Translations under genes and position numbers: made by a program
Part shown: in pieces, positions 35,435 through 55,658 of the stretch
Numbering within the stretch: the stretch's first letter is position 1
Layout: the number at the start of each line of letters is the position of its first letter
The notes under the pieces: generated by a model
What the model was told of the DNA's origin: nothing
What the model saw: the letters and a program-made list of their open reading frames with translations, nothing else
The model's database searches: none
NCBI GenBank assembly: GCA_013215815.1
Contig: JABSQP010000005.1
Coordinates: 62,001-126,000 of the forward strand
DNA: 64,000 bases
Reading direction: 5' to 3'
From: Alphaproteobacteria bacterium
GTDB lineage: Bacteria; Pseudomonadota; Alphaproteobacteria; Micavibrionales; Micavibrionaceae

Positions 35435-35437
35435 TGA

Positions 35438-36157
35438 TTAACCCGGCAAGAAAAGACGCGCATCTAAGTTGAAAGTTTGGTTAGGTCTCAAACGTATAGG
35501 GAAAATTTGGTTCGTTTGTGGATCAAACCACTCCAACTCAATGTATTCTCTATACACTTTTAGATCGAGAACTTTGGAAGGAATTGCATTTGGTCGCACC
35601 TCTCTACCGTTGAGCCACAAAGACCAATCTTCGGCAGAAACGTAGACAATTCCTCCTAAACGAATAAACCTTCTTGATTCAGGGCGAACAATAACTTCTC
35701 CAGTATCTTCATCAACTTCACCGCTATCAAGCTCTTCATCTGTTGGTAATGCCGTGATCAGCCCTGCTCGTGCCTGCCTCAGTAAATCGAGTTCATCGTA
35801 CGTCAAAAACGATGACTGAATAGCCGATGGGAGCACTCCCGGCTCTTTCATTTTTACGCGCATGACAAGCTGCTCATCCAAAGAGAGCTTTTTAAATTCA
35901 GCATTATTATTTTTGACGGGCTCCGCAGGTGGCAACCCCTCGTTCTCTTCTTCTTCCTCTTCTTCTAATGGCTCTTCATCCGGAACATATGGTTCAATGC
36001 CATCAGCAAAAACATCATCATTTAGCTCTAAAGCATCCTCTGAAGCGATTTCATCTTCCAGAGGGATAACTTCAGTGCCAATGTCTTGGGCAAGCACGTG
36101 ACTTGTCGACACACAAATAAATGTAAAAAGCAAAAGATAGGTATAACGATAAAACAT
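35438..36157 (-). CDS. MshK/PilP-like exported protein
   Basis: A 239-residue protein with a signal peptide (cleavage near VLAQ), a strongly acidic middle (a run of Glu near residues 62-72), and a compact C-terminal domain of about 70 residues, GGIVYVSAEDWSLWLNGREV to the end. That resembles the small domain of MshK, PilP and GspC/B-type proteins that contact the secretin. It overlaps the MshJ-like gene by one base. Assignment is by position and domain shape. Confidence 0.55.
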   Translation of the reverse strand: MFYRYTYLLLFTFICVSTSHVLAQDIGTEVIPLEDEIASEDALELNDDVFADGIEPYVPDEEPLEEEEEEENEGLPPAEPVKNNNAEFKKLSLDEQLVMRVKMKEPGVLPSAIQSSFLTYDELDLLRQARAGLITALPTDEELDSGEVDEDTGEVIVRPESRRFIRLGGIVYVSAEDWSLWLNGREVRPNAIPSKVLDLKVYREYIELEWFDPQTNQIFPIRLRPNQTFNLDARLFLPG

Positions 36158-36816
36158 TAGTCAAACTCCCCAATCACAGTCGCTTCAACTTCAACAGCAT
36201 CTGAAGGGACAAGCGTCCACCAAACTGCTTTTATTTTTGCATCAACGATCGGAACATCTTCACCGCCACCAATTTTTCTCAATAAAGGTTGCGTCACCGG
36301 CTGTGTTTTTGAAATCTCAAACTCTTCAATCTCAATAACACCTGGAAAAGCATAATCTAGTAAAAACAAAAAGTTATAAATCTCGATGTCTTCATATGCT
36401 CCAACATCAAAACTCATTTCTGTCTTCAAGAGTTTATGGTTTATTTCGCGCGCATGCTGGTTGAATTCAACTTCTGAAGGTTTCATATCTGCACGAACGG
36501 ATATAACACCGCTTTTATCGCGCAAAACACCAAAAAGAGTTCTCGCCTCCAAACGGTTTTGCGTATTGAAGAAATCCATTTTCTCCAACATGTCATAATC
36601 TTCTTTTTGCTCTAAAAACCGCTGATGATTTGTTAGCAAGTCATTAATCTTGCCTCTTTGAGTAGAAACCTCTCCTTCATTAATTGAGCTTTCACGTTCT
36701 ACTGCATCATACTGTGGCGCCAAAATCACGTAACGATAAGCAGCTCCGGCCATACAAAAAACGACAAGAGCTACGATCAACAATACCCGCTTTACACCTA
36801 ATATATATATCATCAA
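36157..36816 (-). CDS. MshJ/PilO-like inner-membrane protein
   Basis: A 219-residue bitopic protein: a basic N-terminus, one hydrophobic segment at about 9-27, a coiled-coil stretch (ERESSINEGEVSTQRGKIND onward), and a small C-terminal domain with LLKTEMSFDVGAYEDIEIYN and FLFLLDYAFPGVIEIEEFEI, the pattern of PilO/MshJ alignment proteins. It overlaps both neighbours, by four bases and by one, in the order I-J-K expected for an MSHA-type inner-membrane complex. Confidence 0.65.
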   Translation of the reverse strand: MMIYILGVKRVLLIVALVVFCMAGAAYRYVILAPQYDAVERESSINEGEVSTQRGKINDLLTNHQRFLEQKEDYDMLEKMDFFNTQNRLEARTLFGVLRDKSGVISVRADMKPSEVEFNQHAREINHKLLKTEMSFDVGAYEDIEIYNFLFLLDYAFPGVIEIEEFEISKTQPVTQPLLRKIGGGEDVPIVDAKIKAVWWTLVPSDAVEVEATVIGEFD

Positions 36817-38432: not shown

Positions 38433-38456
38433 ATTGAAAAACCCTTAATAGCGCTA

Positions 38457-39674
38457 TTAAAAATCAAGATTCTCGAAACTTGCATAGATAGGGCCGAACA
38501 CCCCGACTGCAATCCAAAGTATCATACCACCAAGTATAAGCGTAAGGGAAGGCTCAATCATAGAAATAACTTTTTCAACCTCTTCATCAACATCGTTGGT
38601 ATAGAATTCGGATACCTGATCCAAAACCTCAGTCAAATTACCAGATTCTTCTCCGACCTTAACCATGCGCACAACCATACTTGGGAACTGGCCGGATTTA
38701 TTAAGTGATTCAGATAGTTGATCGCCAGACTTAACGTAATTTTGTACATTCTCAAGCCCCTCTTTCAACACCCTGTTACTTATCGTGTTGGAACTCGCAT
38801 CAAGCGCTGCAAGAATATCAATACCGCTGTGGAATAATGCGCCAAACGTTTGTGTAAAACGCGCAATGTTAATTTTTCGAATAAGCGGCCCCATGAAAGG
38901 CGCATTCAACATAAGTCCATCCAGCCTGTAAGCAAATGATTCGGAAGACTTCGCCAAAATTACGGTCACAGTAATACTAACAATAGGAACAATGAGCACC
39001 CACATCCAATAATTGACAAAAAAGTCTGACGTTGCCATCAACGCTTTTGTTGCCGCTGGAAGTTCTTGATCAAGCTCTCCCAAAAAAGCAACGATCTTAG
39101 GAACAACAAAGGCCATCATGATGACAACCGTGGCAACAACAGCAAACATAAGAATCATAGGATATCGTGTCGCCTTACGCACACGCGTTTGCATGGCATC
39201 AACCCATTTCAAAAACTTTATAAGCTGAATACAAGACCCTTCAATATTACCGCTTTTCTCACCCGATGCCATAAGAGACACCTGTAAGTTATTGAAAATT
39301 TTGGGATGTTTCTCCATAGCTTCGGAAAAAGCCGCGCCTTCCGAAACATCTCTATAGGCTTCCGCCATAACATCCCGAAAAGTGTCGTTATCTGTTGTAT
39401 CCCGAATGTCTGCGAGAGATTCTAGAATGGGAATACCGGCACCCTGCATCTGTTTAAGGTGAAGATAAAATTGAATGATGTCACGAATCTTGACCTTAGG
39501 GCCACCGAGCCCTAGTCCCTTCTTTGCTGATATTTTCGAACAGTTTATAAGCTCGAGGTCAACTTCCTGAAGCTGATTAAAAAGATCAGCCTCATTCGCG
39601 GCACTCAAAACACCCCGAACCGGCCGTCCATCCATGCTCAACGCACGATACTTATATTTTTCTGTTATCGACAA
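38457..39674 (-). CDS. mshG: Type IV pilus platform protein (MshG/PilC/GspF family)
   Basis: A 405-residue inner-membrane protein with two T2SSF repeats. The first includes FYLHLKQMQGAGIPILESLA near residue 70, the second FTQTFGALFHSGIDILAALD near 270, each followed by a helical bundle. Hydrophobic segments occur near 173-193, 222-242 and 380-400. It converts the rotation of the motor ATPases into pilin insertion. It lies 22 bases after the extension ATPase gene, as in most type IV pilus loci. Confidence 0.9.
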   Translation of the reverse strand: MSITEKYKYRALSMDGRPVRGVLSAANEADLFNQLQEVDLELINCSKISAKKGLGLGGPKVKIRDIIQFYLHLKQMQGAGIPILESLADIRDTTDNDTFRDVMAEAYRDVSEGAAFSEAMEKHPKIFNNLQVSLMASGEKSGNIEGSCIQLIKFLKWVDAMQTRVRKATRYPMILMFAVVATVVIMMAFVVPKIVAFLGELDQELPAATKALMATSDFFVNYWMWVLIVPIVSITVTVILAKSSESFAYRLDGLMLNAPFMGPLIRKINIARFTQTFGALFHSGIDILAALDASSNTISNRVLKEGLENVQNYVKSGDQLSESLNKSGQFPSMVVRMVKVGEESGNLTEVLDQVSEFYTNDVDEEVEKVISMIEPSLTLILGGMILWIAVGVFGPIYASFENLDF

Positions 39675-39696
39675 AAAGGACTCCTATTACCAAGCG

Positions 39697-41874
39697 CTAC
39701 GATTTTGTCACATCAACAATTTTTGCCAAGGCTTCAAAACTTGTTTTCCCCTCTAATATTTTTAGGAAACCATCATCTTTCATTGATTGAAAGCCATTTG
39801 CAATAGCCGCTTCTTTCAGTTCAACCTTCGAACCTCCCTTAGCAAGCACCTCATCCATAGCCTCATCAAACAAGAGAATTTCAGAAACAGCAATACGCCC
39901 TTTATAGCCTTTACCGTTACAAACCTCACAACCGCCTTGGTTTGCCTTAAAGATCTCAGGTGCATCACCTGTAAGTCCCATTAATTCGCATTCTTCATCC
40001 GTCGCTGTGTACGGCTGCTTACAATTCGGACATAACGTACGTCCCAATCGCTGAGCGAAAACAGAAATAATGTTCCCCGCTAACATGCCCGGTATCATAC
40101 CAAGGTCAAATAAACGCGGGATAGCACCAAAAGAGTCGTTTGTGTGCAAAGAGGTGTAAACTTGGTGACCCGTCATAGCTGCCTGAAGCGCCATTTCTGC
40201 CGTTACTTTATCTCGGATCTCACCAACAAAGATGATATCTGGGTCTTGACGCAAGAGAGCACGAATACCATCCGCAAAATCCAAGATCCCTTCCTTAACA
40301 GGCGTTTGTCTAATCATCGGCAACGAATATTCAACAGGATCTTCCAACGTCTGGATATTCACCTGCACATCATTAATCTCGTTCAGCATAGAGTAAAGCG
40401 TTGTCGTCTTACCACTACCTGTCGGACCTGTAACAATAATGATCCCTTCAGGACGCTTTTGCGCTCTGGCAATTCTCTCTTTGTTTACATCGCTGAAGCC
40501 CAGCGCTTTCAATGGCATAATACTTGCCTGCTTATCAAGAATACGCAGAACAATATTTTCACCAAAAACAGTTGGTAGAGATGACACACGGAAGTCGACA
40601 TCTCTTCCCCCAAGAACCATCTCGATACGACCATCTTGCGGAGTCAGTTTGTCCGCAATGTTCAGCTGCGCCATAATTTTCAAACGCTGCGCAATACCGC
40701 TCCAATGTTGTTTATGAAGAATTTGCGCTGTATATAGAGTGCCATCAACACGATAACGAAGACGGACAAAGTTTTCTTCCGGTTCAAAGTGAATATCTGA
40801 CGCCCCTGCTCTCACAGCTTCAAAGATCAGAACATTAACCAAACGAACAATCGGGTGTGAATATGCTTCTTCTTCGGAAAGACCAGAAACGTCGAGATCA
40901 TCTTCATCCGCACCTTCAAGCTCTTTCAAGATACCCTTAACTGTACTCGCATAACCATAAGCAGCATCAATCGCATCAGACAGAACTGATGGCGTTGTAA
41001 TCGATTGCTTAACTTTTAATCCTTTTGGCAGATGACGCTTCAAAATATCAAGAGCCATAACATCATGCGGGTCAGCCATCGCCACATAAACATTCTCGTC
41101 ATCCATCATGTACGGTAAAACCAAGTGCTTTTCAGCGACGGGCTTTTCAATGAACTCTAGCACTTTTCCGTCAATTAAAACTGTCTTAGGGTCGAAAACC
41201 TCAAAACCAGATGATTCCGCAAGAAATGACGCCAGTGTCTCAGGTTCAATAAATCCAAGATCAACAAGGATCTCACCAACCATTTTCTTTGAAGATTTTT
41301 TCTCCTGCAAGGCAACATCAAGTTGGTCTTGCGTAATAATTCCAAGTTCAATAAGGCGCTCACCAATCGGCCCTTTAACACTTCTAATATCTAATTCTTT
41401 TGACTCTGCCACCTGTAACGCCGTCCCAGTTTCTTCAGGCGTTTCTTCAGCAACAGGCTCAGCAATCTCTACGGCCTCTTCTTCAACAATTTCCACCTCA
41501 GGCGTGACATTCATTTCCAAAGGCTCATCTTCATCTAACACCTCTGGTTCAATAGTCATTTCCAAAGGCTCATCGTCATCCAAAACCTCTGGCTCTACAG
41601 CAACAGGTTCTTCAGCAGGTTTATCCTCAATAGTAATGTCCAATGCATCAGGATTCATAACGAGCTCGTCATCTGAGATCTCTTCAACAGCAGCATCCGG
41701 CGCCATATCCATCACAAGATCTGCCTCCACAGGCTCCACCTCAACAACTTCTGCCTCTACAGGCTCGACTTTGTCTTGTTGTGCTTCTTGCGCTGCACGA
41801 TCAGCATCGGGATTCATTGACACATAATCGTCGTCAAATGTCCATTTTGGTTCGTTGCCCTTATTATTATCCAT
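39697..41874 (-). CDS. mshE: Pilus extension ATPase (MshE/PilB/GspE family)
   Basis: A 725-residue motor. The first ~150 residues are an unusual acidic, disordered segment rich in Glu, Val and Pro with near-repeats (EPEVLDDDEPLEMTIEPEVL). An MshEN domain follows: IGERLIELGIITQDQLDVAL then VGEILVDLGFIEPETLASFL; this domain binds cyclic di-GMP in Vibrio MshE. The ATPase core has Walker A GPTGSGKTTTLYSM, LEDPVEYSLPMIRQT, DIIFVGEIRDKVTAEMA and TGHQVYTSLHTNDSFG, and a zinc site CPNC plus CEVCNGKGYKGR. First gene of the locus. Confidence 0.92.
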   Translation of the reverse strand: MDNNKGNEPKWTFDDDYVSMNPDADRAAQEAQQDKVEPVEAEVVEVEPVEADLVMDMAPDAAVEEISDDELVMNPDALDITIEDKPAEEPVAVEPEVLDDDEPLEMTIEPEVLDEDEPLEMNVTPEVEIVEEEAVEIAEPVAEETPEETGTALQVAESKELDIRSVKGPIGERLIELGIITQDQLDVALQEKKSSKKMVGEILVDLGFIEPETLASFLAESSGFEVFDPKTVLIDGKVLEFIEKPVAEKHLVLPYMMDDENVYVAMADPHDVMALDILKRHLPKGLKVKQSITTPSVLSDAIDAAYGYASTVKGILKELEGADEDDLDVSGLSEEEAYSHPIVRLVNVLIFEAVRAGASDIHFEPEENFVRLRYRVDGTLYTAQILHKQHWSGIAQRLKIMAQLNIADKLTPQDGRIEMVLGGRDVDFRVSSLPTVFGENIVLRILDKQASIMPLKALGFSDVNKERIARAQKRPEGIIIVTGPTGSGKTTTLYSMLNEINDVQVNIQTLEDPVEYSLPMIRQTPVKEGILDFADGIRALLRQDPDIIFVGEIRDKVTAEMALQAAMTGHQVYTSLHTNDSFGAIPRLFDLGMIPGMLAGNIISVFAQRLGRTLCPNCKQPYTATDEECELMGLTGDAPEIFKANQGGCEVCNGKGYKGRIAVSEILLFDEAMDEVLAKGGSKVELKEAAIANGFQSMKDDGFLKILEGKTSFEALAKIVDVTKS

Positions 41875-43377: not shown

Positions 43378-44586
43378 ATGCGTATTTTATCAAAAACTTC
43401 TGCTCAATCTTTATTACTTGGGGTCGCTATTTTAACAACATCGGCGATTGGCTCTTCGGCCTTAGCTCAAGTTGACATGGCTCAAAAACCTGTTTTGGTC
43501 ATTACAAACGATGCGATGCCAGCTTCCGCACCACCATCTGTTTATGGTGGCGGACCAATGCGTGTACCGGAAATCACACCGGATCAGATAGCAAGCGCTG
43601 CTTTTTTCCAAGGAAACGAGACTGTTGTTGGTAACAAAATTGCATCACTTAACAATGATCTATTTGCCCTGCAAAGCCGTGTTGGCTCATTAGCGACGCG
43701 CCTTCGTGACATTGAAGGTGGCGGACGTACTTTGGCCGCAACATACTACGCAAATGTTGCAACAATTAACACGCAACTTCAGACTGGGACGACACCTGGT
43801 AACCCACGTCTTGTTCAGAAACTAGACACAGCGCAACAATCTCTTGATCAACTATCCAACAACGTTGCTGGCCTGAATGGCCTCGCTGTTGAGATTGCTG
43901 ACGCCGCTTCTGTTGGAGCATTCCTGTTGGAGACAGTACGTTCTACATACAACTTGTCTGGTGCGATCGAAGAAGACCACTCGAAGCTTGCTCAAATGGA
44001 AGATCAAGTAAACAACGCGATCATCACAATCGATCGCCTTTTGAACGAAGTGAACGACAACATCACACGCACAACAGCATACCTCAGCACAGAAAGAAAC
44101 AATCTGCGCACACTATCTCTTGCTGTCACAAGTGGTGACCTTTTTGGTCGTAGCCTAGCGAACAATCCTTTCTCTGCTGCGCCAGCAAGCACATTAATGC
44201 AGCCTGCTGCATACACACAGACAGCAGGCATGATGCCTGTTCCACCTCAAGCAATGCCCTCTCCTGCACCAACAGTATCAGCAGGAAATCGACCGCTTGC
44301 TAAAATACGCTTTGATAAGGCAAACGTTGAGTATGAACAGCCTTTATACGTTGCTGTACAAAACGCTCTTCAGAAATACCCTCAAGCACGCTTTGAACTC
44401 GTCGCTGTACACCCGACAAGCGGAAACGCTGCTCAAGTTGCAATCGAAAGCACAAAAGCACGCCGAAACGCAGAGAAGGTATTGCGCAATCTGACACAAA
44501 TGGGCTTGGACATGAATCAAATCGATCTATCGTACGCACCTATGGCAGATGCGAGATCAAGTGAAGTGCATTTATATATCCGTTAA
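43378..44586 (+). CDS. Exported coiled-coil protein with OmpA-like C-terminal segment
   Basis: A 402-residue protein with a signal peptide (cleavage after SSALAQ). The middle (about 75-250) is helical and heptad-like (KIASLNNDLFALQSRVGSLA, DHSKLAQMEDQVNNAIITID), then a Pro/Ala/Met linker. The last 90 residues (LAKIRFDKANVEYEQPLYVA, KARRNAEKVLRNLTQMGLDM) have the strand-helix plan and the RRxxAEKV segment reminiscent of OmpA-like peptidoglycan-binding domains. Probably periplasmic. It is 15 bases upstream of the next gene and likely cotranscribed. Confidence 0.6.
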   Translation: MRILSKTSAQSLLLGVAILTTSAIGSSALAQVDMAQKPVLVITNDAMPASAPPSVYGGGPMRVPEITPDQIASAAFFQGNETVVGNKIASLNNDLFALQSRVGSLATRLRDIEGGGRTLAATYYANVATINTQLQTGTTPGNPRLVQKLDTAQQSLDQLSNNVAGLNGLAVEIADAASVGAFLLETVRSTYNLSGAIEEDHSKLAQMEDQVNNAIITIDRLLNEVNDNITRTTAYLSTERNNLRTLSLAVTSGDLFGRSLANNPFSAAPASTLMQPAAYTQTAGMMPVPPQAMPSPAPTVSAGNRPLAKIRFDKANVEYEQPLYVAVQNALQKYPQARFELVAVHPTSGNAAQVAIESTKARRNAEKVLRNLTQMGLDMNQIDLSYAPMADARSSEVHLYIR

Positions 44587-44601
44587 TGCTACAATAGGGG
44601 C

Positions 44602-45723
44602 GTGCCTATTTTACAACTATTAAAGAAATATTGGATCGGTCTACTTCTTGTAGTGGTAGTTATCATTGCAGGAGTATTTGCTGGTTCAAAACTTAATGGC
44701 AATAAATACGCAAACCCTGATGAAAAAGAACTCGCTCAAAGCTACGAAAAACTCTTCAACGCCACTCAAAAAGGTGAGAACATAAAGGTCTATGCGCCTA
44801 AAAAAAAAGACTCGAGAATTAAACAAATAAAAGGCCCAACATACGATGCGGCATCGCCGACAATGGGCGCCATACTAACTACCGTTCAGGGAAAACTAGA
44901 CTTCGAGAAACTGCAGATAGCTGTTTCGAAACCATTTGAATTAGTAAAAGAAAATCAAGCCCTCCTCTTCTACTCTCTTAAAGGTGATGTTGTTGCAAAA
45001 GAACTCATTACAAGCATTGATGGTAGTAACCCCGACACAATTATAGCCAGCTATACAGACCACCATATTCAATACATCAATAAAGCGGCATTAGAACAAA
45101 GCGGCGATATTGTTGTAAAAGAAGTTGGCCCCATCAAGAGAGTATCTAACCAAGGTATTATTGAAGAGAATGGAGAACATTTTATTTACGTAGCGAAAGC
45201 TATGAAAGATGAAAATGGAAGAACCGTCATTCTCTACAACGGACAAGTTATAGCTGCAGAAGTTCACAAGGTTCCGATAGACATACAAATTTCAGACGAT
45301 TGGAACACTCAAGCTAGTCGCAATATTCACAAAGCAGATCTTATAATACTCAACCCCAATAGCGATTTGCATGATGGCAAACTTGTTAAACTCAGAATCT
45401 TAAAATTCAAAGACGAGACATCAAGCATAACCGCTCAAGTAAAAGCGACAATGCGTCAGCAAGCTGTTATCGCCACACGTGAGGAACTAAAAAAACTGCT
45501 GGAACAATGCTCGCTAGCACAAGCAGCTCAAGCAAAAGTATTAGCCGAACAAGGCGACTCAGTAACTAGAGGAAGCTGTGGCAGTAACTCGGGAGGAAGC
45601 AGCTGTGGTGGTGGAGTTACAACTGACACTGCAGAGCAACATTCGGATGTCGATCCTTATGAGCTTTTAGGCATAGAAAAAACACTTCCCGAAAATATGT
45701 CTACGCCAGTTCCTTCAGAATAA
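44602..45723 (+). CDS. Membrane-anchored periplasmic protein of unknown function
   Basis: A 373-residue protein starting at GTG 44602. One hydrophobic segment at about 10-29 anchors a large periplasmic part with beta-rich sequence (GRTVILYNGQVIAAEVHKVP) that loosely recalls membrane-fusion adaptors, a helical stretch near 285-310, and a Cys/Gly/Ser-rich cluster (RGSCGSNSGGSSCGGG near 328-345). The ribosome site AGGGG sits very close to the GTG, so the start is uncertain. Its last 23 bases overlap the convergent phosphatase gene. Confidence 0.5.
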   Translation: MPILQLLKKYWIGLLLVVVVIIAGVFAGSKLNGNKYANPDEKELAQSYEKLFNATQKGENIKVYAPKKKDSRIKQIKGPTYDAASPTMGAILTTVQGKLDFEKLQIAVSKPFELVKENQALLFYSLKGDVVAKELITSIDGSNPDTIIASYTDHHIQYINKAALEQSGDIVVKEVGPIKRVSNQGIIEENGEHFIYVAKAMKDENGRTVILYNGQVIAAEVHKVPIDIQISDDWNTQASRNIHKADLIILNPNSDLHDGKLVKLRILKFKDETSSITAQVKATMRQQAVIATREELKKLLEQCSLAQAAQAKVLAEQGDSVTRGSCGSNSGGSSCGGGVTTDTAEQHSDVDPYELLGIEKTLPENMSTPVPSE

Positions 45724-46236: not shown

Positions 46237-47076
46237 ATGTCTAATCTATGCGCCATGAATTCACTTCCTTTTGATCCTGAACAAATCGAGATTCGTCTAG
46301 CGCATAATGACGAGGAAATAGAAGCGGCACAACGTCTTCGCTATACAGTTTTTTATGAAGAGTACGGCGCTACGCCAAATGAGGAAATGGCGCGGGAAAA
46401 ACGCGACATGGATTCTTATGACGAAATCACAGATCATCTCGTTGTTGTAGACCATTCCATTTCAGAAGGATTGGATAGCATTGTTGGAACATACCGTCTT
46501 TTAAGGCAAAGCGTTGCCGAAGAGTACGGGCAATTCTATACAAGCGATGAATATGATATTTCTCCGCTTATTAATAGCGGCACAACACTATTAGAACTAG
46601 GTCGCTCCTGTGTCCTACCCAACTACCGCACGCGACCTGTTTTACAAAAGATGTGGCAAGAGATTGCACATTATGTAGCAGATCATGACATTGGCATGAT
46701 GTTCGGATGCGCCAGTCTTCATGGCACAAACATTGAAGAGCTATCAGAGCAACTTGCTTACCTGCATCACAACCATCTTGCTGAAGATCATTTATGCCCA
46801 AAGGCTGTTGAAAGCCGCTACGTGGACATGAACCTTCATAAAAAAGAAGATCTTGATGTCAAAAAGGCTTTCATGTCGCTCCCCCCTCTGATCAAAGGGT
46901 ATATCCGTTTAGGAGCCTCCATCGGTGAGGGTGCAGTCATTGATGAACAATTCAACACAACCGATGTTTGTATCGTCATGCCAACAGCACAAATTACAGA
47001 TAAATACCTGAAGCATTACGAACGCATCACACAAAAAACAATGCCAACAAACCAAGTGCATAAGGCAGCCTCCTAG
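46237..47076 (+). CDS. olsB: L-ornithine N-alpha-acyltransferase (OlsB-like)
   Basis: A GNAT-fold enzyme expected to transfer 3-hydroxyacyl chains from acyl-ACP to ornithine, the first step of ornithine lipid synthesis. At 279 residues it shows the family start (EIRLAHNDEEIEAAQRLRYT), DHLVVVDHS with IVGTYRLL, LELGRSCVLPNYRTRPVLQK, and FGCASLHGTN. ATG 46237 and ATG 46255 are both possible starts. The acyltransferase that would complete the lipid follows immediately, without any gap, which supports the assignment. Confidence 0.82.
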   Translation: MSNLCAMNSLPFDPEQIEIRLAHNDEEIEAAQRLRYTVFYEEYGATPNEEMAREKRDMDSYDEITDHLVVVDHSISEGLDSIVGTYRLLRQSVAEEYGQFYTSDEYDISPLINSGTTLLELGRSCVLPNYRTRPVLQKMWQEIAHYVADHDIGMMFGCASLHGTNIEELSEQLAYLHHNHLAEDHLCPKAVESRYVDMNLHKKEDLDVKKAFMSLPPLIKGYIRLGASIGEGAVIDEQFNTTDVCIVMPTAQITDKYLKHYERITQKTMPTNQVHKAAS

Positions 47077-47883
47077 ATGGGTACCGTAATCGCCTACTTA
47101 CGAGTATTCTTACTCGCTATTATTTGTTTGATTACAATACCTATTCAGGCATTAAATCTCTTACTTTTCAAGAATTCGTGTTTTTTCTATGTCGTTCCGT
47201 TCGCTTTTCACAACTCATTACGTATGACATTTGGAATTAAGCTAAAGATTGAAGGCGCCATTCAAAAAGATAAGCAAACCGTTTTTGTTGGCAACCACCT
47301 CTCTTACTTGGACATCCCTGTTATGGGTAGCCTTCTTAAGGCAAACTTTGTCTCTAAAGATGATGTTAGAGGCTGGCCTATTTTTGGATTACTCGCTGAA
47401 CTTTCTCGCACAATTTTCATTAGCCGCACACCATCAAAAGCCGCACAATCTATACAGCAGATGAATGATGCCATTAATGAAGGTCGCTCATTGATTATTT
47501 TTCCCGAAGGTACGTCCACTAGAGGAAAAGAAGTTCTTCCATTTAAATCCAGCTTTTTTGATATCTTTTTAAAAAATCAAAACAAAGACGATTTAAGCAT
47601 ACAACCATTCACGATTGGCCTAACAAAGACAAATGGCCAACTGGTAACGAAAGACCAAGATTACGACACATATGCATGGCATGGCGATATGGATCTACAA
47701 CCGCATATCTGGTCCCTTGCAAAGGGAAATGGTGCAGAGCTGACTATTACATTCCATGAGCCTATAAGCCTGAAAGGCTATGAAAACAGAAAAATTCTAG
47801 CTGTCGATTGCTTTGATAAGACGCAAAAAGGGCTAGAAGACACACAAAGCCATATCGAAAAAGAGCAACAAAAAGCTGCTTAA
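47077..47883 (+). CDS. olsA: Lyso-ornithine lipid O-acyltransferase (OlsA-like, PlsC family)
   Basis: A 268-residue membrane-associated acyltransferase. The catalytic HxxxxD motif is GNHLSYLDIPVMG near residue 75; the substrate motifs RTIFISRTPS and IIFPEGTSTRGKEV follow. An N-terminal hydrophobic segment (residues 6-30) anchors it. PlsC-type enzymes can make phosphatidic acid, but placement directly behind olsB argues for ornithine lipid synthesis. Start abuts the olsB stop. Confidence 0.8.
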   Translation: MGTVIAYLRVFLLAIICLITIPIQALNLLLFKNSCFFYVVPFAFHNSLRMTFGIKLKIEGAIQKDKQTVFVGNHLSYLDIPVMGSLLKANFVSKDDVRGWPIFGLLAELSRTIFISRTPSKAAQSIQQMNDAINEGRSLIIFPEGTSTRGKEVLPFKSSFFDIFLKNQNKDDLSIQPFTIGLTKTNGQLVTKDQDYDTYAWHGDMDLQPHIWSLAKGNGAELTITFHEPISLKGYENRKILAVDCFDKTQKGLEDTQSHIEKEQQKAA

Positions 47884-47942
47884 AAGCTTGATTGTTAAAC
47901 CAAACCCTCCTAAGACTAAGGAATATAAACAAGGAAAATACT

Positions 47943-48185
47943 ATGTCAGCCGTAGCGGAGAAAAAAATGGAAATCACACCTGATGAACTCGTTCGAATTC
48001 AAGCGTACTTACGTAGTAAGTTTGCAAACGAAGGACTTGCTGTACGTCCACGTTCTCAAACGACAGATTCTATAGAGGTTCTTTTAAACGGGGAGTTTAT
48101 TGGTGTAGTCTATAAAGATGAAGACGAAGGCGAAACATCTTATGATTTCAACATGGCGATCCTCGATATCGACCTTCCTGAATAA
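47943..48185 (+). CDS. DUF3126 family protein
   Basis: An 80-residue cytoplasmic protein. The block TPDELVRIQAYLRSKFANEG, followed by VLLNGEFIGVVYKDEDEG and FNMAILDIDL, is the hallmark of DUF3126, a short alphaproteobacterial family of unknown function. The start is ATG 47943, with AAGGAAAATACT upstream; the frame opens earlier at 47892. The following gene probably overlaps its end. Confidence 0.88.
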   Translation: MSAVAEKKMEITPDELVRIQAYLRSKFANEGLAVRPRSQTTDSIEVLLNGEFIGVVYKDEDEGETSYDFNMAILDIDLPE

Positions 48186-48633
48186 GCCTCTTACTTATTG
48201 CCTTATTATTGCTGGTTTAACCATTCCTACTTCATTGTGGGCGCAAGAGCCTGTGTTTTTTAAAGAACCAGAGACAACAAAAGAAAAAAGAGCTATCTCA
48301 TTTATTAAAAAAGATACACAAAGCACTGATAATAAATACAAAATAGCAAAAACAGATTTAAACACAGACTCCTTAAACGAGTATATCGTTAAGCCACAAG
48401 AGTGCCGATCCGGTACGATGTGCACACATTACGTTATCGCCTTCATGGAAGGGCTACCAATTGAACTATTAAGCATCAAAGCCCGCAAAATCACCATTGA
48501 TACACAAGATCAATATGGCGTAAAAAACCTTTTCATTTACGGTCACGAGACAAATGATTTCAAAAAAACACCGTATTTTTGGACCCCGGGGTCTTTTTCT
48601 TATAAACAAAATCTTGGTGTAAACACGCGTTAA
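48142..48633 (+). CDS. Small exported protein, uncharacterised
   Basis: About 163 residues if started at ATG 48142, which overlaps the DUF3126 gene by 44 bases; starts at 48118 or further downstream are possible. The N-terminal hydrophobic stretch (LTYCLIIAGLTIPTSLWAQ) is a signal peptide. The mature part has a Cys pair in ECRSGTMCTHYVIAFMEG and a C-terminal beta-rich segment. No family recognised. First of four consecutive exported proteins (48.1-52.05 kb). Confidence 0.5.
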   Translation: MISTWRSSISTFLNKPLTYCLIIAGLTIPTSLWAQEPVFFKEPETTKEKRAISFIKKDTQSTDNKYKIAKTDLNTDSLNEYIVKPQECRSGTMCTHYVIAFMEGLPIELLSIKARKITIDTQDQYGVKNLFIYGHETNDFKKTPYFWTPGSFSYKQNLGVNTR

Positions 48634-48674: not shown

Positions 48675-50189
48675 ATGGGGTTATGCGTCTTGTTTCATAA
48701 AAACAAACAAAATCAATGGCTTTTAAGGTGGAATTTTTTCACAGGCATGGCCGTGCTATTCGTTTGTGTTGCATTACATAATGCCCCCTCAAATGCCCAA
48801 CAAGCAAACTGTACAATTCAAGACACATTCCCAAAGAACTACACCTCCCCACCATCCCACTTTGGCGCAAGCAGAAGTAGTGGAGCTCGTTGGCACGCCG
48901 GTGTTGACTTCTTTTTACCTCCAGCGAACAGCCTGAGTAATCCAACGGCTCCACGCACACGGGTAGATATACCTTTTGGGTGTCAAATTCACCTATACAG
49001 TGATGGGACAGCCATATGGAAATCTGACCCTACAGGATACGGTAACTACATGTTCCTCGGTTGTGGTAATCATGGCGGCGATGACATAACCTTAAGATAT
49101 GCCCATATTACAGGTTATGACACAGACACACAGGAAATCATCCAAGGTCGATCCGGTATTGAAACAGCAAGTATTCCCGATCACTATCACTTTGAAGTCC
49201 TCATAGGAAATGTGCCCGTCGACCCAGAATGTGTGCTTGGTTTAGAAAAAGGAGACGGCCCAAACTCCCCTATCCCCGAATGTAGACAGTGTCCAACCGC
49301 AGGAGGACCTGCCAACCTTTGCGACGCCAGCGTACGTGATGCACTTATCCGTCACAGCGACGTCTGTCACCGTGGCCGAATAACAAAAAGCGTTCCTTCT
49401 GGAACATCAACTGTTGATCCAAATCGCATGGGCGGCAACGGTGTTCAAGGCGATCCTAACGCAGGTGTCGGAACAAACCCTGGTACTTTCGGTGGACATG
49501 GTGATGATGGGCATTATCACAATCACGATATATCACCATCAGACGAGTATGGCGGTGATGTAGACACCCTCTACCCACCAACATCCACGATCCCCCCTCC
49601 ACCACCTAAAGCCCCACCGCCGTCAGGAACAACTGATGGACCGGCTGATTTGGTGATAGATGCAACTGGCTCACATGATGTAACTGGATGCGCCGTGGAT
49701 ACGTGGACGGCAATGGTGAACCAGGCTGTATTGGAAGCAAGACGCGAAACAATTATGTATCAAAAACTTATCGCCAAAGCGGACAGTGTTATTACATACA
49801 CATGCTTTGACGATGTGGTCCGTAATGCTGCGGCGAATATAGGCCCGATATTCAGTGAAACAAGTGATTGGGTGGATCGTACCGTTAATATATTACCGAC
49901 AGATGTAACAATAAGTCGCGAATTGGGCGCAGACTCCCTCGATGGATCATTAACAATGCTTGTTGATCAAATGATGGCCCCATACCTTACTCAAAGCTTC
50001 AGCCATGGTTTACTTGGTGAAACAGCCGGGTCAATTAGCGTCCCTTCTGGCGCCTGTTCGGTCATGGAAAACGTATGGAACGCCGCAAAATGTAAAAATG
50101 CGGACGCACCGTTTTATACATTTGAAGATCTTGTAACGAATAACGATCCGAGAGATGTCCCTTCCAGCTTTGACTGTGGAGCACCATAA
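48675..50189 (+). CDS. Exported M23 (LytM-type) metallopeptidase with a Cys-rich C-terminal domain
   Basis: A 504-residue exported protein (signal segment about 20-41). Residues 60-180 form an M23 endopeptidase domain with all the metal and catalytic positions visible: RWHAGVDFF (His74, Asp78), LRYAHI (His144) and DHYHFEV (His170 and His172). The family cleaves peptidoglycan cross-bridges or stems. A Cys-rich region, a His/Gly-rich stretch near 275-285 and a poly-Pro linker near 307-316 follow. The C-terminal domain (about 339-500) recurs in the gene at 51128. Target and partner proteins unknown. Confidence 0.7.
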   Translation: MGLCVLFHKNKQNQWLLRWNFFTGMAVLFVCVALHNAPSNAQQANCTIQDTFPKNYTSPPSHFGASRSSGARWHAGVDFFLPPANSLSNPTAPRTRVDIPFGCQIHLYSDGTAIWKSDPTGYGNYMFLGCGNHGGDDITLRYAHITGYDTDTQEIIQGRSGIETASIPDHYHFEVLIGNVPVDPECVLGLEKGDGPNSPIPECRQCPTAGGPANLCDASVRDALIRHSDVCHRGRITKSVPSGTSTVDPNRMGGNGVQGDPNAGVGTNPGTFGGHGDDGHYHNHDISPSDEYGGDVDTLYPPTSTIPPPPPKAPPPSGTTDGPADLVIDATGSHDVTGCAVDTWTAMVNQAVLEARRETIMYQKLIAKADSVITYTCFDDVVRNAAANIGPIFSETSDWVDRTVNILPTDVTISRELGADSLDGSLTMLVDQMMAPYLTQSFSHGLLGETAGSISVPSGACSVMENVWNAAKCKNADAPFYTFEDLVTNNDPRDVPSSFDCGAP

Positions 50190-50227
50190 TTTTGATAATA
50201 GCCAACGAAAAAAGCTATAATATAAGA

Positions 50228-51061
50228 ATGTTACGGTTTTTCGCGATATGCTTCGTTGCGGCTTTATTTCCCATGGAAACCAAAGCCCAATGCGCCACGC
50301 CAACTTGCATCACAGGAGAAATGATTGGCTTGGGTCAAAATGCCTCCGTCAATAACGCTGTTGTAAATAGTCAAATGAACCTGTTTACAGGTCAAAATGT
50401 ATCAACACAAAGTGCTGCCGCGCAAGCAGCGGCGGATGCGGCGGAAGCAGCTGCAGAGGCAGCAAACGCAGCTAGAGCAGCAGCAAACGCAGCAGCTAGA
50501 GCAGCTAATGCATTTGGAGCAACACAAGAAGTGATAGATGCAGCAAACAACGCAGCAGTCGCCGCAAATAATGCAGCGGCGCAAGCAAATAACGCAGTGA
50601 CATCAGCAGGCGCTTCTGCTTCGGCGACAAGCAACGTAAATTCAAATGCAGGAAGTTCTGCATCATCCACAGCAGCTTCTGCAGATGCCGCGCTAGACGC
50701 CGCGCTAGAAGCGGCAAACGCGGCAAGGGCAGCAGGTGCAACAGCGGAAGCAGATGCGGCAAGGGACGCCGTTGGAGACGCTCGTGCAGCAGTAAGAGCA
50801 GCAAACACAGCGGCAGCAGCAGCTTTAGGGTGCGACACGGCAACACCAGTTGGTGCTGGCGCCTATGTTTATCGATGGTATTCCCCTCACAAAGACGGGC
50901 ATAATATAAGGTATTTAGATAGGTTTTGTCTCATTCAGGGGTGCCATTTTGACATAGATATAAGCACAACACGTACAAACCCAATAACAGGAGTAGTAGG
51001 ACGAGGACCAACAGCGCCACGATTTGCGCGAGTAAGAAATCCAACCTGCGCTGTTCCATAA
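50228..51061 (+). CDS. Exported Ala-rich helical protein
   Basis: From ATG 50228 the product is 277 residues; the frame opens at TTG 50192. A signal peptide ends near ETKAQ. About residues 55-205 consist mostly of Ala with Asn, Glu, Asp, Arg and Ser (AADAAEAAAEAANAARAAAN), suggesting one or more long Ala-rich helices. The last 70 residues form a different, Cys-containing domain (ALGCDTATPVGAGAYVYRWY, FCLIQGCHFDIDI). It stands between the M23 gene (38 bases) and its paralogue. Confidence 0.55.
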   Translation: MLRFFAICFVAALFPMETKAQCATPTCITGEMIGLGQNASVNNAVVNSQMNLFTGQNVSTQSAAAQAAADAAEAAAEAANAARAAANAAARAANAFGATQEVIDAANNAAVAANNAAAQANNAVTSAGASASATSNVNSNAGSSASSTAASADAALDAALEAANAARAAGATAEADAARDAVGDARAAVRAANTAAAAALGCDTATPVGAGAYVYRWYSPHKDGHNIRYLDRFCLIQGCHFDIDISTTRTNPITGVVGRGPTAPRFARVRNPTCAVP

Positions 51062-51127
51062 ACAACATAATGAATAAATTAAGTCTACAGAATTGCTAAA
51101 ACCATGTTTTTTAAGGTACTATTAGAT

Positions 51128-52048
51128 ATGAGATTAAATTTGCGGGCCATTTTTACTGTCTGTTTTTCACTTGTGCTTGGAACAAGTTTCGGAGCCTATG
51201 CGCAAACCGTTGCTCCGCAACCATGCGACGCCAATTATTGGACCACCCTAGAAAACAGAGCATGGTTAGAGGCTGAGCGTGAAATCATGCAGAATCAAAA
51301 CCTTATTTTTAAACCGGACAGCGTCTTGGAATATGTATGTTTTGATACAATGGTTGACCATGTTGCCCAACATGCAGGAAATATTTTTTCCCATACAAAC
51401 TACTTCGGCGAAGATATCGTCGGGAGCGACACACAATTTGGTCTTCGTAACAGTTTAGAACGGGCTGTTGCTCTTGCCTTACGTGCATATAACGAGCAAA
51501 ACTTCTCTCATACCTTCCTTGGCGGACGTGCCGCAGACAGTGCCTCGGGAATAACTGGAATGGGTATGAACCCATCAGACCATCGTTTTGATGGCAGAAC
51601 GCGCCTCGGCACGTATGCTTGTGGCGCCATGTCTGCAGTCTGGCAAACAGCAAAATGTGCAAACTTCAATGGTAACAGTTCGTTTCAGGACGGTTTCTAC
51701 CCACTCGACGCTTTAGGCGCTGTTGGCGGTGGATCAGGAGTGTCCGGTTACCGGGATGCTGACAGAGAAACACGCATTAGACCGTCATCATGTGGTGCAT
51801 CATTTACGGCATGGGATACTTTCATGACCGCCATAGAAAGCCATAACAATACATCATTCCAAATACCGCTCCGCACTATTTATACTGATGTTTACAACAG
51901 AACACGTCCGGGAGCATGTGGCGCAGCGATCTCTACGGGCATTACTGTATATACATCAAGCGGTGAGCATCAGGACGGCGTTTGTACAAACCCTGGCTGT
52001 ACATATTCGGCTCCAGCTTCCGGTAGTGGAACAGGCTCCTGCAGCTAA
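51128..52048 (+). CDS. Exported protein sharing the C-terminal domain of the M23 gene
   Basis: About 306 residues from ATG 51128 (AAGG upstream; an earlier ATG at 51104 lacks one). Signal peptide ends near AYAQ. The mature protein aligns with the C-terminal domain of the M23 protein: CDANYWTTLENRAWLEAERE against CAVDTWTAMVNQAVLEARRE, then KPDSVLEYVCFDTMV against KADSVITYTCFDDVV, NFSHTFLG against SFSHGLLG, and AVWQTAKCANF against NVWNAAKCKNA. It lacks the peptidase. A Gly/Ser/Cys-rich tail ends the protein. Family not recognised. Confidence 0.6.
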   Translation: MRLNLRAIFTVCFSLVLGTSFGAYAQTVAPQPCDANYWTTLENRAWLEAEREIMQNQNLIFKPDSVLEYVCFDTMVDHVAQHAGNIFSHTNYFGEDIVGSDTQFGLRNSLERAVALALRAYNEQNFSHTFLGGRAADSASGITGMGMNPSDHRFDGRTRLGTYACGAMSAVWQTAKCANFNGNSSFQDGFYPLDALGAVGGGSGVSGYRDADRETRIRPSSCGASFTAWDTFMTAIESHNNTSFQIPLRTIYTDVYNRTRPGACGAAISTGITVYTSSGEHQDGVCTNPGCTYSAPASGSGTGSCS

Positions 52049-52050: not shown

Positions 52051-52452
52051 CTAATCTTTCTTTGTGAGTATATCTTTTACACCTTTTTTCAGGGCTGTAT
52101 TGTGTGGATTAAGTTCTAAGGTCTTCGCAACAATATCCAGCATCTTGGCTTGATCGACCTCTTCGACTTTATTAGCTGGAACATTTGCATGCGCCTGCTT
52201 TGCCGCTTCTCTTGCTTTATCTTTTGTGGCGGCTTCCTTAAGTGACCCCTGCTTGACCTCAGGCACAGCCTCTTTATGAACATGTTTTGGTTCAGCACCG
52301 ACCATTTGCGCGGCTAAGGGCGATTTTTCTATAAATTCTCTAACCTTTTCAAGTACCCCTGGTTCAGCTCTTGCTTTCGCTTTGCGCATTTCTTCAAAAG
52401 CTTCTTTCTCGATCTGCTTTCTTGTTTTTTTCTGAGTAAAAATGCGTCGCAT
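52051..52452 (-). CDS. Small charged hypothetical protein
   Basis: Start at ATG 52452 is supported by GGAAGACG upstream; the frame opens earlier but that part overlaps the waaA start. The 133-residue product is very rich in Lys, Glu and Ala (RKQIEKEAFEEMRKAKARAE), probably helical, with a C-terminal KMLDIVAKTLELNPHNTALK that has a TPR-like look. No family recognised. It converges with the exported-protein gene, separated by two bases. Confidence 0.55.
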   Translation of the reverse strand: MRRIFTQKKTRKQIEKEAFEEMRKAKARAEPGVLEKVREFIEKSPLAAQMVGAEPKHVHKEAVPEVKQGSLKEAATKDKAREAAKQAHANVPANKVEEVDQAKMLDIVAKTLELNPHNTALKKGVKDILTKKD

Positions 52453-52528
52453 ATTACGTCTTCCTCTTAATATAGTCGCTTGAAATTCTTTACTTTTTGC
52501 GCTTATTCCTTCTATATCATACCAGAAA

Positions 52529-53842
52529 ATGACAAATACGCGAAAAGAGAACATACTGCCCCTCCCCTTAAAGATTTACCGCCAGCTCACCGAGCGCGCG
52601 GACAAACCTCTCATGCGCCTTCTTGATTGGCGCCTAAAAAAAGGGAAAGAGTTAAAAGAGCGCCTGAACGAGCGCCAAGGAAAACCACAAAAACCACGCC
52701 CGGAAGGAAAACTGATCTGGCTCCATGCTGCCAGCGTCGGTGAGGCACAGTCGGCATTAATTCTAATCGATAAAATTATCGCGCAAAACACCGCATCGAA
52801 CATCTTGGTGACTAGCGGTACAGTTACATCTGCAGAATTGATGGCCAAGCGCCTGCCCGAAAGAGCTTTTCATCAATTCATTCCACTAGATCACCCTGAA
52901 TGGGTACAAAGCTTCCTCGACCATTGGAAACCGGACATGGCATTTCTGATTGAGTCAGAGTTATGGCCTAATCTTTTATTAGAAATCAAAGAACGAAAGA
53001 TTCCAGCAACACTCGTTAACGCACGCCTTTCGAATGCATCTTATCGAGGGTGGTCTGTACTTAAAGGCAGTATTAAAAAAATGCTATCTACCTTTGAACT
53101 TATTCTTGCGCAATCAGTTAATGATGCTTTGCGTTTTAAAAAGCTTAGCGATGTAGCAACCAAACCTGTTGGTAATATTAAATACAGTGCGGCCCCTCTC
53201 CCTTATATAGATGCAGACTTCCAAACACTGACGAGCGCTATAAATGGTCGTCCAACATGGGTTTATGCCAGCACGCATCTTGGCGAAGAAACACTTGCCT
53301 GCCGCATTCATGAACGTTTAAGGCAGCATATCCCGAACCTGCTCACCATTATTGTTCCAAGGCACCCTGAACGCCGAGAAGAAATACAGAAAATTTGCGA
53401 CAGCTTTATAGGCTCGAATATTTCAATGCGCGGTGAAGAAAAACAATCACCAACGAATGAAACAGATATCTACGTAGCCGACACGCTGGGTGAGCTTGGT
53501 CTGTTTTACAAATTATCTGACGTAGCCATGATTGGACGCTCATTCAGCGCCGATGGCGGCGGCGGGCATAACCCACTAGAAGCATCCCAATATGGCCTTC
53601 CTGTTTTAACAGGGCCCAACTTTCAGTATCAAGAAGCACTGTTTGAAGATATGATTGCGTTTAAAATTGCAAAACAAGTCCAAACAAAAGAAGAACTACA
53701 CGACGCTCTCCTCAGACTTTTTAATGAATCTGAGTTAAGAGAAAAAATTTCAGAAAACGCACTGAAATACACAAAAGAAAAACAAGACGTTATTGATATC
53801 GTCATGCAAGAGATAACACCGATGCTACAGGGAAATGTGTAA
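52529..53842 (+). CDS. waaA: 3-deoxy-D-manno-octulosonic acid transferase
   Basis: Adds Kdo residues to lipid IVA at the inner membrane. At 437 residues it has normal length. Visible features: WLHAASVGEAQSALILI near residue 70 with the conserved Glu, TSGTVTSAELMAKRLP, the interdomain FLIESELWPNLLLEIKER, IVPRHPERREEI and the C-terminal GGGHNPLEASQYGLPVLTGP that binds CMP-Kdo. It overlaps lpxK by one base and heads a lipid A unit. Confidence 0.95.
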   Translation: MTNTRKENILPLPLKIYRQLTERADKPLMRLLDWRLKKGKELKERLNERQGKPQKPRPEGKLIWLHAASVGEAQSALILIDKIIAQNTASNILVTSGTVTSAELMAKRLPERAFHQFIPLDHPEWVQSFLDHWKPDMAFLIESELWPNLLLEIKERKIPATLVNARLSNASYRGWSVLKGSIKKMLSTFELILAQSVNDALRFKKLSDVATKPVGNIKYSAAPLPYIDADFQTLTSAINGRPTWVYASTHLGEETLACRIHERLRQHIPNLLTIIVPRHPERREEIQKICDSFIGSNISMRGEEKQSPTNETDIYVADTLGELGLFYKLSDVAMIGRSFSADGGGGHNPLEASQYGLPVLTGPNFQYQEALFEDMIAFKIAKQVQTKEELHDALLRLFNESELREKISENALKYTKEKQDVIDIVMQEITPMLQGNV

Positions 53843-54807
53843 TGCCCGCAAAGACCCCGTCATTCTGGTATGAACAAAAAGATTGGAGATCTTGTCTTCT
53901 TTCCCCAATCGCGATGCTCTATCAGCTAGGACATTGTATTAATTACACATCTAAAAAACCGTTCAAAGCCGGTATGCCCGTGATTTGTGTTGGTAACATT
54001 GTAATGGGTGGCAGCGGCAAAACACCTACCGTTCAGGCACTATTAAAACTTATTGAAAAGAACAACATTGCACACAATCCGGTTGTTCTAACGCGCGGTT
54101 ACGGTGGAAATAGAACAAAGCCAACTGTTGTTGATTGTTCAAAACATTCTGCATCCGATATAGGAGATGAGGCGCTCTTCCTTGCAGAGCATGGAACAGT
54201 TATTGTCTCTCCTGATCGCAAAGCAGGCGCAGAAAAAGCAAAAGAAATCGGCGCTGATTTGATCATTATGGATGATGGTTTTCAAAACAATACACTGCAT
54301 AAAGACTTCAGCCTCCTCGTTGTCGATGCCTTAAACCCGTTTGGAAACGGCTCAACTTTTCCTTCTGGCCCTTTGAGAGAGCCGATCGAAAAAGCATTAA
54401 AACGCACAGACGCTGTTATTAGTATCAACGGTGAAGTTGCGTTAGGCACAACAACATTAAGCGCGTCTATTAAACCGATAACAGATAACCTTGACCTTGA
54501 GAAAAATTACGTTGCCTTTGCTGGACTTGGTCGCCCCGAGAAGTTTTTAAATACATTGGAAGCGCTCAACATCAATGTAACAAGTTGGCACGAATTTGCA
54601 GATCATCACCCTTACACGCATGAAGAACTCGACGCGCTGATAAAGGAAGCAAATGATTGTAACGCTTCTTTGATCACGACCGAAAAAGACCTCATGCGCA
54701 TAGCTGAAAACCACAAAGCTAAAATCCAGACATTACCGATTGAATTATCGTTTGGTGAGGAAGACGCTCTTGTATCCTTAATGAAGGAAAAGGTCGGCGC
54801 ATGTTAA
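53842..54807 (+). CDS. lpxK: Tetraacyldisaccharide 4'-kinase
   Basis: Phosphorylates the 4' position of the lipid A precursor at the inner membrane. At 321 residues it shows the P-loop VGNIVMGGSGKTPTVQALLK near residue 51, TRGYGGNRTKP, GDEALFLAEHG, IMDDGFQNNTLHKD and FAGLGRPEKF followed by DHHPYTHEEL. It starts inside the waaA stop and overlaps the next acyltransferase gene by seven bases. Confidence 0.95.
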   Translation: MPAKTPSFWYEQKDWRSCLLSPIAMLYQLGHCINYTSKKPFKAGMPVICVGNIVMGGSGKTPTVQALLKLIEKNNIAHNPVVLTRGYGGNRTKPTVVDCSKHSASDIGDEALFLAEHGTVIVSPDRKAGAEKAKEIGADLIIMDDGFQNNTLHKDFSLLVVDALNPFGNGSTFPSGPLREPIEKALKRTDAVISINGEVALGTTTLSASIKPITDNLDLEKNYVAFAGLGRPEKFLNTLEALNINVTSWHEFADHHPYTHEELDALIKEANDCNASLITTEKDLMRIAENHKAKIQTLPIELSFGEEDALVSLMKEKVGAC

Positions 54808-55658
54808 AGAAACTGGGTTATGGCGTTGAAACGCTTCTTATCCTTATTTTATTTGGCTTTTTTAAAATCATGCCCGCAGCCCTCGCCTCCAATATTGGTG
54901 GCCTGATTGGTCGTACCATTGGTCCGCGTCTAGCTGCGTCTCGTAAAGCGCTTCGCAATATTCAAAACGCCCTCCCCGAAGCCAATCACGATAAAATACT
55001 GATGGGTATGTGGGAGAATTTAGGCCGCACATTTGCCGAATACCCACACCTGAATAAACTGGCAAAACATAATGTTGAGATTATAGGTGCAGAACATCTT
55101 TTGAATACCAAGGATAATGCCGCCATTATTTTTGCGGCTCACCTTGCGAACTGGGAGCTGTGCCCCCTTGCCCCAGCTCTACAACATGAGAGCATTACGC
55201 ACTCAATCTACCGTGCGCCGAATAACCCTTTGGCTGATCGAATCCTCATGCGCTGCCGCAACCTTGGTGGAAAGATATCTCCCATTCCAAAGTCAAAAAG
55301 CGGCACACGTCAAATTGTGAAGCGTTTACAAAATAAGGAACACTTGGGCTTCCTGATTGATCAAAAATACAATGAAGGTGTATCAGTGCCATTCTTTCAT
55401 GCACCAGCCATGGCAAGTCCGGCTTATATTCAACTCGCTCAGAAATTTAAATGCCCGCTTATCCCGGCGCAGATTGAACGCACAAATGGCGCGAACTTCC
55501 GTCTCACTGTGCACCCACCTATAGATACGAACAAAGACGAAGAAGCGTTACTTCTTGAAACACATCAAACAATGGAAAACTGGATCAAATCTAACCCTGA
55601 GCAGTGGCTATGGCTTCACCGCCGATGGGATTCCGCTAAATTGGAGAATGAAGCATGA
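54801..55658 (+). CDS. Lipid A biosynthesis-type lauroyl/myristoyl acyltransferase (LpxL/HtrB family)
   Basis: A 285-residue inner-membrane enzyme with one N-terminal hydrophobic segment (about 12-30). The catalytic HxxxxE motif is FAAHLANWELCPL near residue 113; IYRAPNNPLADRILM and FLIDQKYNEGVSVPFF follow in the expected order. The family adds secondary acyl chains to lipid A. Overlap with lpxK and with gor by four bases makes a waaA-lpxK-acyltransferase-gor unit. Which chain it adds cannot be told. Confidence 0.87.
   Translation: MLKKLGYGVETLLILILFGFFKIMPAALASNIGGLIGRTIGPRLAASRKALRNIQNALPEANHDKILMGMWENLGRTFAEYPHLNKLAKHNVEIIGAEHLLNTKDNAAIIFAAHLANWELCPLAPALQHESITHSIYRAPNNPLADRILMRCRNLGGKISPIPKSKSGTRQIVKRLQNKEHLGFLIDQKYNEGVSVPFFHAPAMASPAYIQLAQKFKCPLIPAQIERTNGANFRLTVHPPIDTNKDEEALLLETHQTMENWIKSNPEQWLWLHRRWDSAKLENEA

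Follow-up and report, generated by a model that had tools for sequence, protein, structure and literature searches.

Polymorphic toxin and effector-immunity systems combine a constant module with catalytic domains that are exchanged, and the partner protein changes along with them. To our knowledge, it is poorly understood how epibiotic predators such as Micavibrio open the walls of their prey without harming themselves. The LytM-, ShyA- and MepM-type endopeptidases belong to the M23 family (PF01551), and in Bdellovibrio the wall endopeptidases Bd3459 and Bd0816 have a neighbouring exported self-protection protein, Bd3460, as described previously (PMC4686830). Here, we describe a cassette of four genes, c8, A1, A2 and B, on one strand of a 64,000-nucleotide stretch of DNA (the window) from an alphaproteobacterium of the Micavibrionaceae (contig JABSQP010000005.1); each product has a hydrophobic N-terminus. 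Gene A1 joins a predicted M23 peptidase to a domain, D1, which recurs in gene B together with a second module, D2. We propose, with a probability of about 0.45, that the cassette encodes an exported M23-D1 wall hydrolase with D1(-D2) as its address module and c8 as its cognate partner, gene B being an old duplicate.

The locus resembles polymorphic toxins in that different fronts are exchanged on a constant module and the partner, in one family of the order, seems to change with the front, but the constant module is C-terminal here and the locus lies beside lipid A genes. No delivery apparatus was recognized in the cassette itself. With the Bdellovibrio pair it would have in common a predator, an exported wall endopeptidase and an adjoining small exported protein, a precedent for an inhibitor (PMC4686830). 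In contrast, Bd3459 is described there as a penicillin-acylated serine endopeptidase whereas A1 is a predicted metallopeptidase, and Bd3460 has an ankyrin fold whereas the low-confidence model of c8 has one main helix and beta strands and is mostly beta. The features of the cassette are as follows.

48142..48633 (+; open reading frame from 48118): c8, small protein, hydrophobic at the N-terminus, that may be the hydrolase's cognate partner; found upstream of M23 genes in relatives
48675..50189 (+): gene A1, M23-D1 protein of 504 aa with a hydrophobic N-terminus; BLASTP, profile and residue check
48852..49247 (+): predicted M23 domain of A1, residues 60-191; alignment of the cassette M23s (A6) and residue check
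49671..50180 (+): D1 domain of A1, residues 333-502; profile positions 46-220 of 306
50228..51061 (+): gene A2, Ala-rich protein with the D2 module displaced from A1; profile match at the end only
50411..50821 (+): Ala-rich stretch of A2 that the 118-121 aa orthologues of loci L021 and L022 lack; alignment
50822..51058 (+): D2 module of A2; alignment and profile
51128..52048 (+; open reading frame from 51104): gene B, D1-D2 protein of 306 aa without peptidase, with a hydrophobic N-terminus; BLASTP and profile
51224..51793 (+): D1 domain of B; profile and conserved columns
51917..52042 (+): D2 module of B, with C264, C286, C291 and C305 of 306 aa; profile and conserved columns

The genes are closely spaced, with 41 bases between c8 and A1, 38 between A1 and A2 (2 if A2 starts at 50192) and 66 between A2 and B (42 if B starts at 51104).

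The M23 domain and the shared D1 and D2 modules

The initial annotation described A1 as a 504-residue M23 protein with all metal and catalytic residues, and this description holds: HxxxD (H74 and D78), YAH (H144) and HxH (H170 and H172) are intact. The same five residues mark the M23 family, but the window domain differs in escaping the Pfam model and in being followed by a Pro-rich linker and D1. A1 has no match to PF01551 at E<=1 and was also missed when its own genome was searched; three further M23 genes lie elsewhere in that genome. Searched against the PDB with phmmer, A1 gives a weak match to M23 structures (best 3slu, E=0.1); when 12 cassette M23s, among them that of the window, are combined in a profile, 3slu is matched at E=6e-22. 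Among homologues of the same architecture, PF01551 scores above its cut-off in L028, L034, L118, L121, L114, L127, L184, L187 and L189, and below it or without a match in L021, L022, both genes of L023 and L041 (L041 carries the same genes as L027 and was omitted from profiles and trees). By homology and residues, A1 is assigned as a divergent M23 and is likely a peptidoglycan hydrolase.

The C-terminal domain of A1 does recur in the protein at 51128, as was first noticed, and that protein consists of D1-D2 only, without a peptidase. BLASTP aligns the two at 34% identity over 160 columns (E=3e-20). A D1-D2 profile of 29 rows, which includes B (as the 51104 protein) and leaves out A1, matches A1 at residues 333-502 with E=7e-44, covering profile positions 46-220 of 306 and none beyond. 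Nine Cys positions of D1-D2 are conserved in 27 to 29 of the 29 rows; this cysteine pattern and the profile E-values rule out chance or low-complexity likeness, and the profile search proposed with the annotation thus returned true homology. The architecture of A1 is M23, Pro-rich linker and D1, and that of B is D1 followed by D2, a short cysteine module. For the D1/D2 family no Pfam, NCBIfam or PDB match was found, the latter searched by profile with the D1-D2 alignment, and no description of it was found among the titles and abstract openings listed on Micavibrio and M23 peptidases or, since 2012, on Micavibrio with peptidoglycan, predation and secretion, which is not proof of absence. In two loci (L138 2027-5188 and L139 1778-4807), a repetitive insert of roughly 700 residues lies inside D1.

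The Ala-rich exported protein between A1 and B was taken by the initial annotation for a component of its own. Its composition (30% Ala) and hydrophobic N-terminus stand, but not its independence: the D2 module missing from A1 makes up its last ~80 residues, and an independent Ala-rich partner is thereby ruled out. The A2-type proteins of eight loci from the same genus match only the end of the D1-D2 profile (widest 216-302, narrowest 255-301), with sequence-level E-values, filters off, of 2.9e-10 to 5.5e-5, the window copy being the weakest; the window A2 itself gives E=9e-5 against the profile, also with filters off. Four genomes (G017, G032, G125 and G076) carry M23-D1-D2 as one protein of 511-587 aa. 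Because the A2 types match the profile end only and the parts are fused in these four, A1 and A2 correspond to one split gene, A2 being the displaced D2 half, split in the window's genus and fused elsewhere. The window A2 additionally has an Ala-rich stretch in its tail, which is missing in L021 and L022. The conserved core of the system is D1(-D2) and not the peptidase.

Exchange of front domains on D1

D1 carries different fronts in relatives. The clearest instance is genome G047, which has two D1 proteins whose D1 parts are 83% identical over 212 residues and which have no significant match before D1. One front is an M23 domain (PF01551, E=1.4e-28) and the other matches the PHROG family "baseplate hub subunit and tail lysozyme", in the best case at E=5e-24. 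An M23-D1 and lysozyme-like-D1 pair likewise occurs, in tandem, in G049, and fronts related to the lysozyme-like one occur in G049, G126 and G052, with matches to PHROG families of transglycosylases, endolysins or tail fibres (E from 5e-5 to 7e-3). Furthermore, G117 has a beta-helix front on D1-D2 (L140 4199-7618; PF13229, E=1e-28). M23, lysozyme-like and beta-helix fronts on D1 would thus reproduce the polymorphic-toxin trait of a constant module with different catalytic domains. In G019, a long open reading frame similar to that of the G117 protein (L037 10933-14712) overlaps the D1-D2 gene in another frame. Within single genomes of family f7 (L114/L115, L127 and L184), D1 copies are nearly identical despite their different fronts, which looks like gene conversion.

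The initial annotation also suggested that the genes form a set acting on peptidoglycan. Since D1 is fused in relatives either to M23 or to a domain with matches to phage tail-lysozyme and transglycosylase families, peptidoglycan is the likely substrate, and that part of the suggestion stands.

A small partner that seems to follow the enzyme

The c8 protein has the motif DLNxD..NEYI and two conserved Cys, and no Pfam, NCBIfam or PHROG match. A gene of its family lies directly upstream of 14 of the 15 M23-D1/D2 genes read, in 14 genomes, the M23 genes of G128 and G061 being cut by a contig end. A c8 subtype, k20, stands directly before the M23 gene in all five loci that have it (G001, G006, G017, G076 and G125), and c8 and k20 are distant homologues (hhalign 98.5%). 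Lysozyme-type D1 genes have a different small gene, P2, directly upstream (5/5 read). Export of these partners was judged by hydrophobic N-termini, computed for the window and by reading elsewhere.

In family f7, where both enzyme types occur, the partner matches the enzyme type in 8/8 hydrolase genes of five genomes. There the partners group by enzyme type, the P2 clade having support 100/99 (the program warned of long branches), and leave-one-out scores are 41-156 bits for a partner's own type and at most 17.2 for the other. In contrast, the D1 parts of G047 and G049, the two genomes with both M23 and lysozyme copies in the D1 tree, group by genome (100 and 96, both starred). Because partners group by enzyme while D1 groups by genome, the small protein seems to answer to the enzyme and not to D1; partner identity would thus track the front domain, as seen in one family of the order and few genomes.

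These results can be put together as follows. A1 would be exported to the periplasm or beyond and cut peptidoglycan through its N-terminal M23 domain. D1(-D2) would be a common address, docking or assembly module, and therefore enzymes set on D1 may reach the same envelope site or export route. c8 would be the cognate partner of the catalytic domain, either an inhibitor by which the producer spares its own wall or a chaperone dedicated to the enzyme; that c8 and P2 switch with the enzyme hints at self-protection. The sequences themselves show the homology of the domains, the intactness of the M23 residues, the gene split, the synteny, the exchange of fronts on D1 and, in one family, the partner following the front; from these we infer that A1 is an active hydrolase, that it is exported beyond the periplasm, that D1-D2 serves as its address, that c8 inhibits it and that its target is the wall of the producer or of other cells. 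In a broader form, D1-D2 would be an unrecognized address module that places or exports exchangeable wall-degrading enzymes in the order containing Micavibrio, each enzyme with a co-inherited periplasmic self-protection protein, beside lipid A synthesis; in that form we consider the proposal unlikely. The cassette offers a short list of candidates: a wall enzyme, a possible inhibitor and a conserved module that perhaps sets the enzyme's destination.

Distribution, synteny and history

A search with 26 family members found the D1/D2 family in 116 of the 142 genomes of the order. Among 385 genomes of the class, five matched, namely four of the window's own taxonomic family and one other that was borderline (E=1.3e-4), kinship being given for all but 360 unlisted genomes. 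The family therefore appears nearly confined to one order. A scan of genome contigs with one protein as query returned one locus. As for a mobile origin, no relative was confirmed in viral contigs (query B only) and no plasmid matched B.

The cassette sits between ornithine-lipid and lipid A genes, in this order.

46237..47076 (+): olsB-like ornithine N-acyltransferase, upstream neighbour kept in relatives; NCBIfam NF052555, E=5e-92, slightly below cut-off; synteny
47077..47883 (+): olsA-like lyso-ornithine-lipid acyltransferase, upstream neighbour kept in relatives; NCBIfam NF052553, E=5e-52, below cut-off; synteny
47892..48185 (+): DUF3126 protein; PF11324, E=1e-28
52529..53842 (+): waaA (Kdo transferase), downstream neighbour kept in relatives; NCBIfam NF004387, E=5e-109, below cut-off
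53842..54807 (+): lpxK; TIGR00682, E=3e-62, above cut-off
54801..55658 (+): lpxL-type lipid A acyltransferase; NF005120, E=5e-62, below cut-off

Of the 57 loci read, 33, from 33 of 47 genomes, have a D1 gene no more than 1.5 kb from waaA; the remaining 24 are additional copies or have no waaA in the stretch read, except one, in G032, where the distance is 4 kb. A survey of gene neighbourhoods thus finds the genes together in relatives, and this kept synteny rules out a scattering of the cassette genes. In G032 (L036 5881-12901), a D1-D2 gene stands among three related large proteins (cluster c24), two of which were scanned and had no Pfam match.

The D1 tree (118 rows, quick method) excludes three rows, of which two carry large insertions in D1 and one is truncated. 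In this tree the eight M23 carriers included from the window's taxonomic family fall into one 31-row group (support 91, not starred), whose other 23 rows are without the M23 label, and the B genes fall into a separate 44-row group (support 97, starred) that has no M23 carriers. The tree therefore points to A and B as old duplicates, B being the copy with D1-D2 only. The M23 tree had a single outgroup row. The order DUF3126-c8-M23-D1-waaA-lpxK-lpxL also occurs in L114 (G047, family f7), and c8-M23-D1-waaA-lpxK-lpxL in L187 (G037, family f2), where the D1 match is weak (E=8e-6). Because this gene order is common to the window, L114 and L187, it points to an M23 form that is old at the waaA-side site and has been lost often, although tree counts alone cannot separate gain from loss.

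Strong c8 matches (E<=1e-20) occur in 52 of the 142 genomes, 50 of the 52 in the window's taxonomic family (f1), and 65 genomes match at E<=1e-3. A cassette M23 was found in at least 10 f1 genomes, and all 10 seen are among the 50 with a strong c8; the listed M23 matches end near E=7e-18, and the G075 locus lies at the edge of a contig. Genomes of f3 and f5 have a c8 match in 0/25 and no M23 motif in the D1 loci read. In G041 (f6, L188), c8 is followed by a 510-aa protein without a detected D1 or M23, which was not counted.

We take G071 to be M. aeruginosavorus ARL-13 and the window's taxonomic family to be that of Micavibrio, so that the lineage appears to contain an obligate predator. The NCBI taxonomy places the genus Micavibrio in Bdellovibrionota. 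The ARL-13 genome paper describes type I secretion and a type II system that is probably functional, finds no evidence of type III or type IV systems, puts forward GMV0053, a different M23 protein, as a candidate, and leaves the roles of the hydrolases in predation to be elucidated (PMC3189940).

Alternative explanations

Several observations weigh against the proposal of an addressed hydrolase with a cognate partner. In G071, taken as ARL-13, the family is represented by one D1-D2 gene beside waaA, and neither a c8 match nor a cassette M23 was found. The M23 gene L023:5657 is not preceded by a c8-type gene, and P2 and c8 are themselves distant homologues (hhalign 96%), so that the "different partner" would be diverged and not unrelated. 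Forty of the 50 f1 genomes with a strong c8 show no cassette M23 among the matches listed, and c8 may therefore outlive M23, working without it or persisting as orphan immunity. Some related M23 copies differ at these residues: HLD, with Asp for the last zinc-binding His, replaces HxH in L023:8010, L027 and L127 (alignment A6), and the M23 of G037 seemingly lacks the catalytic His, by reading. The lysozyme-like label of the other fronts is probable, from PHROG names and a motif read by eye; the G128 front (L184:4494) has no PHROG match and is lysozyme-like by motif reading only, the fronts of L115, L127 and L184 have no Pfam match to any lysozyme family, and that of L115 has no PDB match. For c8, the fold search gave no convincing match (best Foldseek E=0.3; best Z 6.1), an alignment used in a PDB profile search gave three hits with E 0.1-0.3, and the AlphaFold model of D1-D2 is poor (pLDDT 40); as a consequence, the predicted folds lend no functional support.

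A housekeeping role in wall remodelling would account for much of the setting: A1 would be a periplasmic LytM-type endopeptidase for growth or division, sited near lipopolysaccharide assembly by D1-D2 and regulated by c8. The position between ornithine-lipid and lipid A genes, the proximity of D1 to waaA and the near confinement of a widespread family to one order all fit this role. However, most f1 cassettes are without M23 among the matches listed, the M23 domain is replaced by a lysozyme-like or beta-helix front in some relatives, the window's genome has its three other M23 genes, and tandem copies and partner exchange resemble conflict genes. We regard a housekeeping role as somewhat unlikely. 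In another explanation, which seems quite improbable, D1-D2 is a structural surface protein (an adhesin, surface layer or pilus-linked protein) on which enzymes are occasional passengers, and c8 partners the A-lineage protein and not M23. This would agree with D1-D2 without M23 being the common form and the sole copy in G071, with c8 being kept where no cassette M23 was listed, and with type IV pilus/type II secretion genes being located upstream, both in the window and in several relatives. Against it stand the f7 partners, which follow the enzyme and not D1, and two f7 D1-only genes (L184:3159 and L185:1819) that have no such partner directly upstream. Lastly, the window M23 could act, without catalysis of its own, as a LytM-type regulator by binding or activating a different wall enzyme, in keeping with its divergence, its missing PF01551 match and the loss of a ligand in some related copies; the window copy keeps all five metal and catalytic residues, and such a role is very unlikely.

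Neighbouring genes

Upstream of the cassette, a type IV pilus/type II secretion-like cluster at 28691-41874 on the minus strand encodes a secretin, three T2SSE ATPases, T2SSF and a prepilin peptidase N-terminal domain; several relatives have genes homologous to its ATPases and T2SSF close to the cassette (clusters c11 and c17). Two proteins at 43378-45723 have hydrophobic N-termini by reading and no Pfam family above cut-off, and their homologues are upstream of the cassette in relatives (c6 and c13). Convergent with gene B, a small lysine-rich protein at 52051-52554 (-) belongs to cluster c16, found in six loci of the first comparison set, and has no Pfam family above cut-off and no NCBIfam match. 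In a scan of the window, promoter-like sites were at the level of chance (12 versus 11.9 expected), and 14 terminator-like sites were found versus 7.2 expected.

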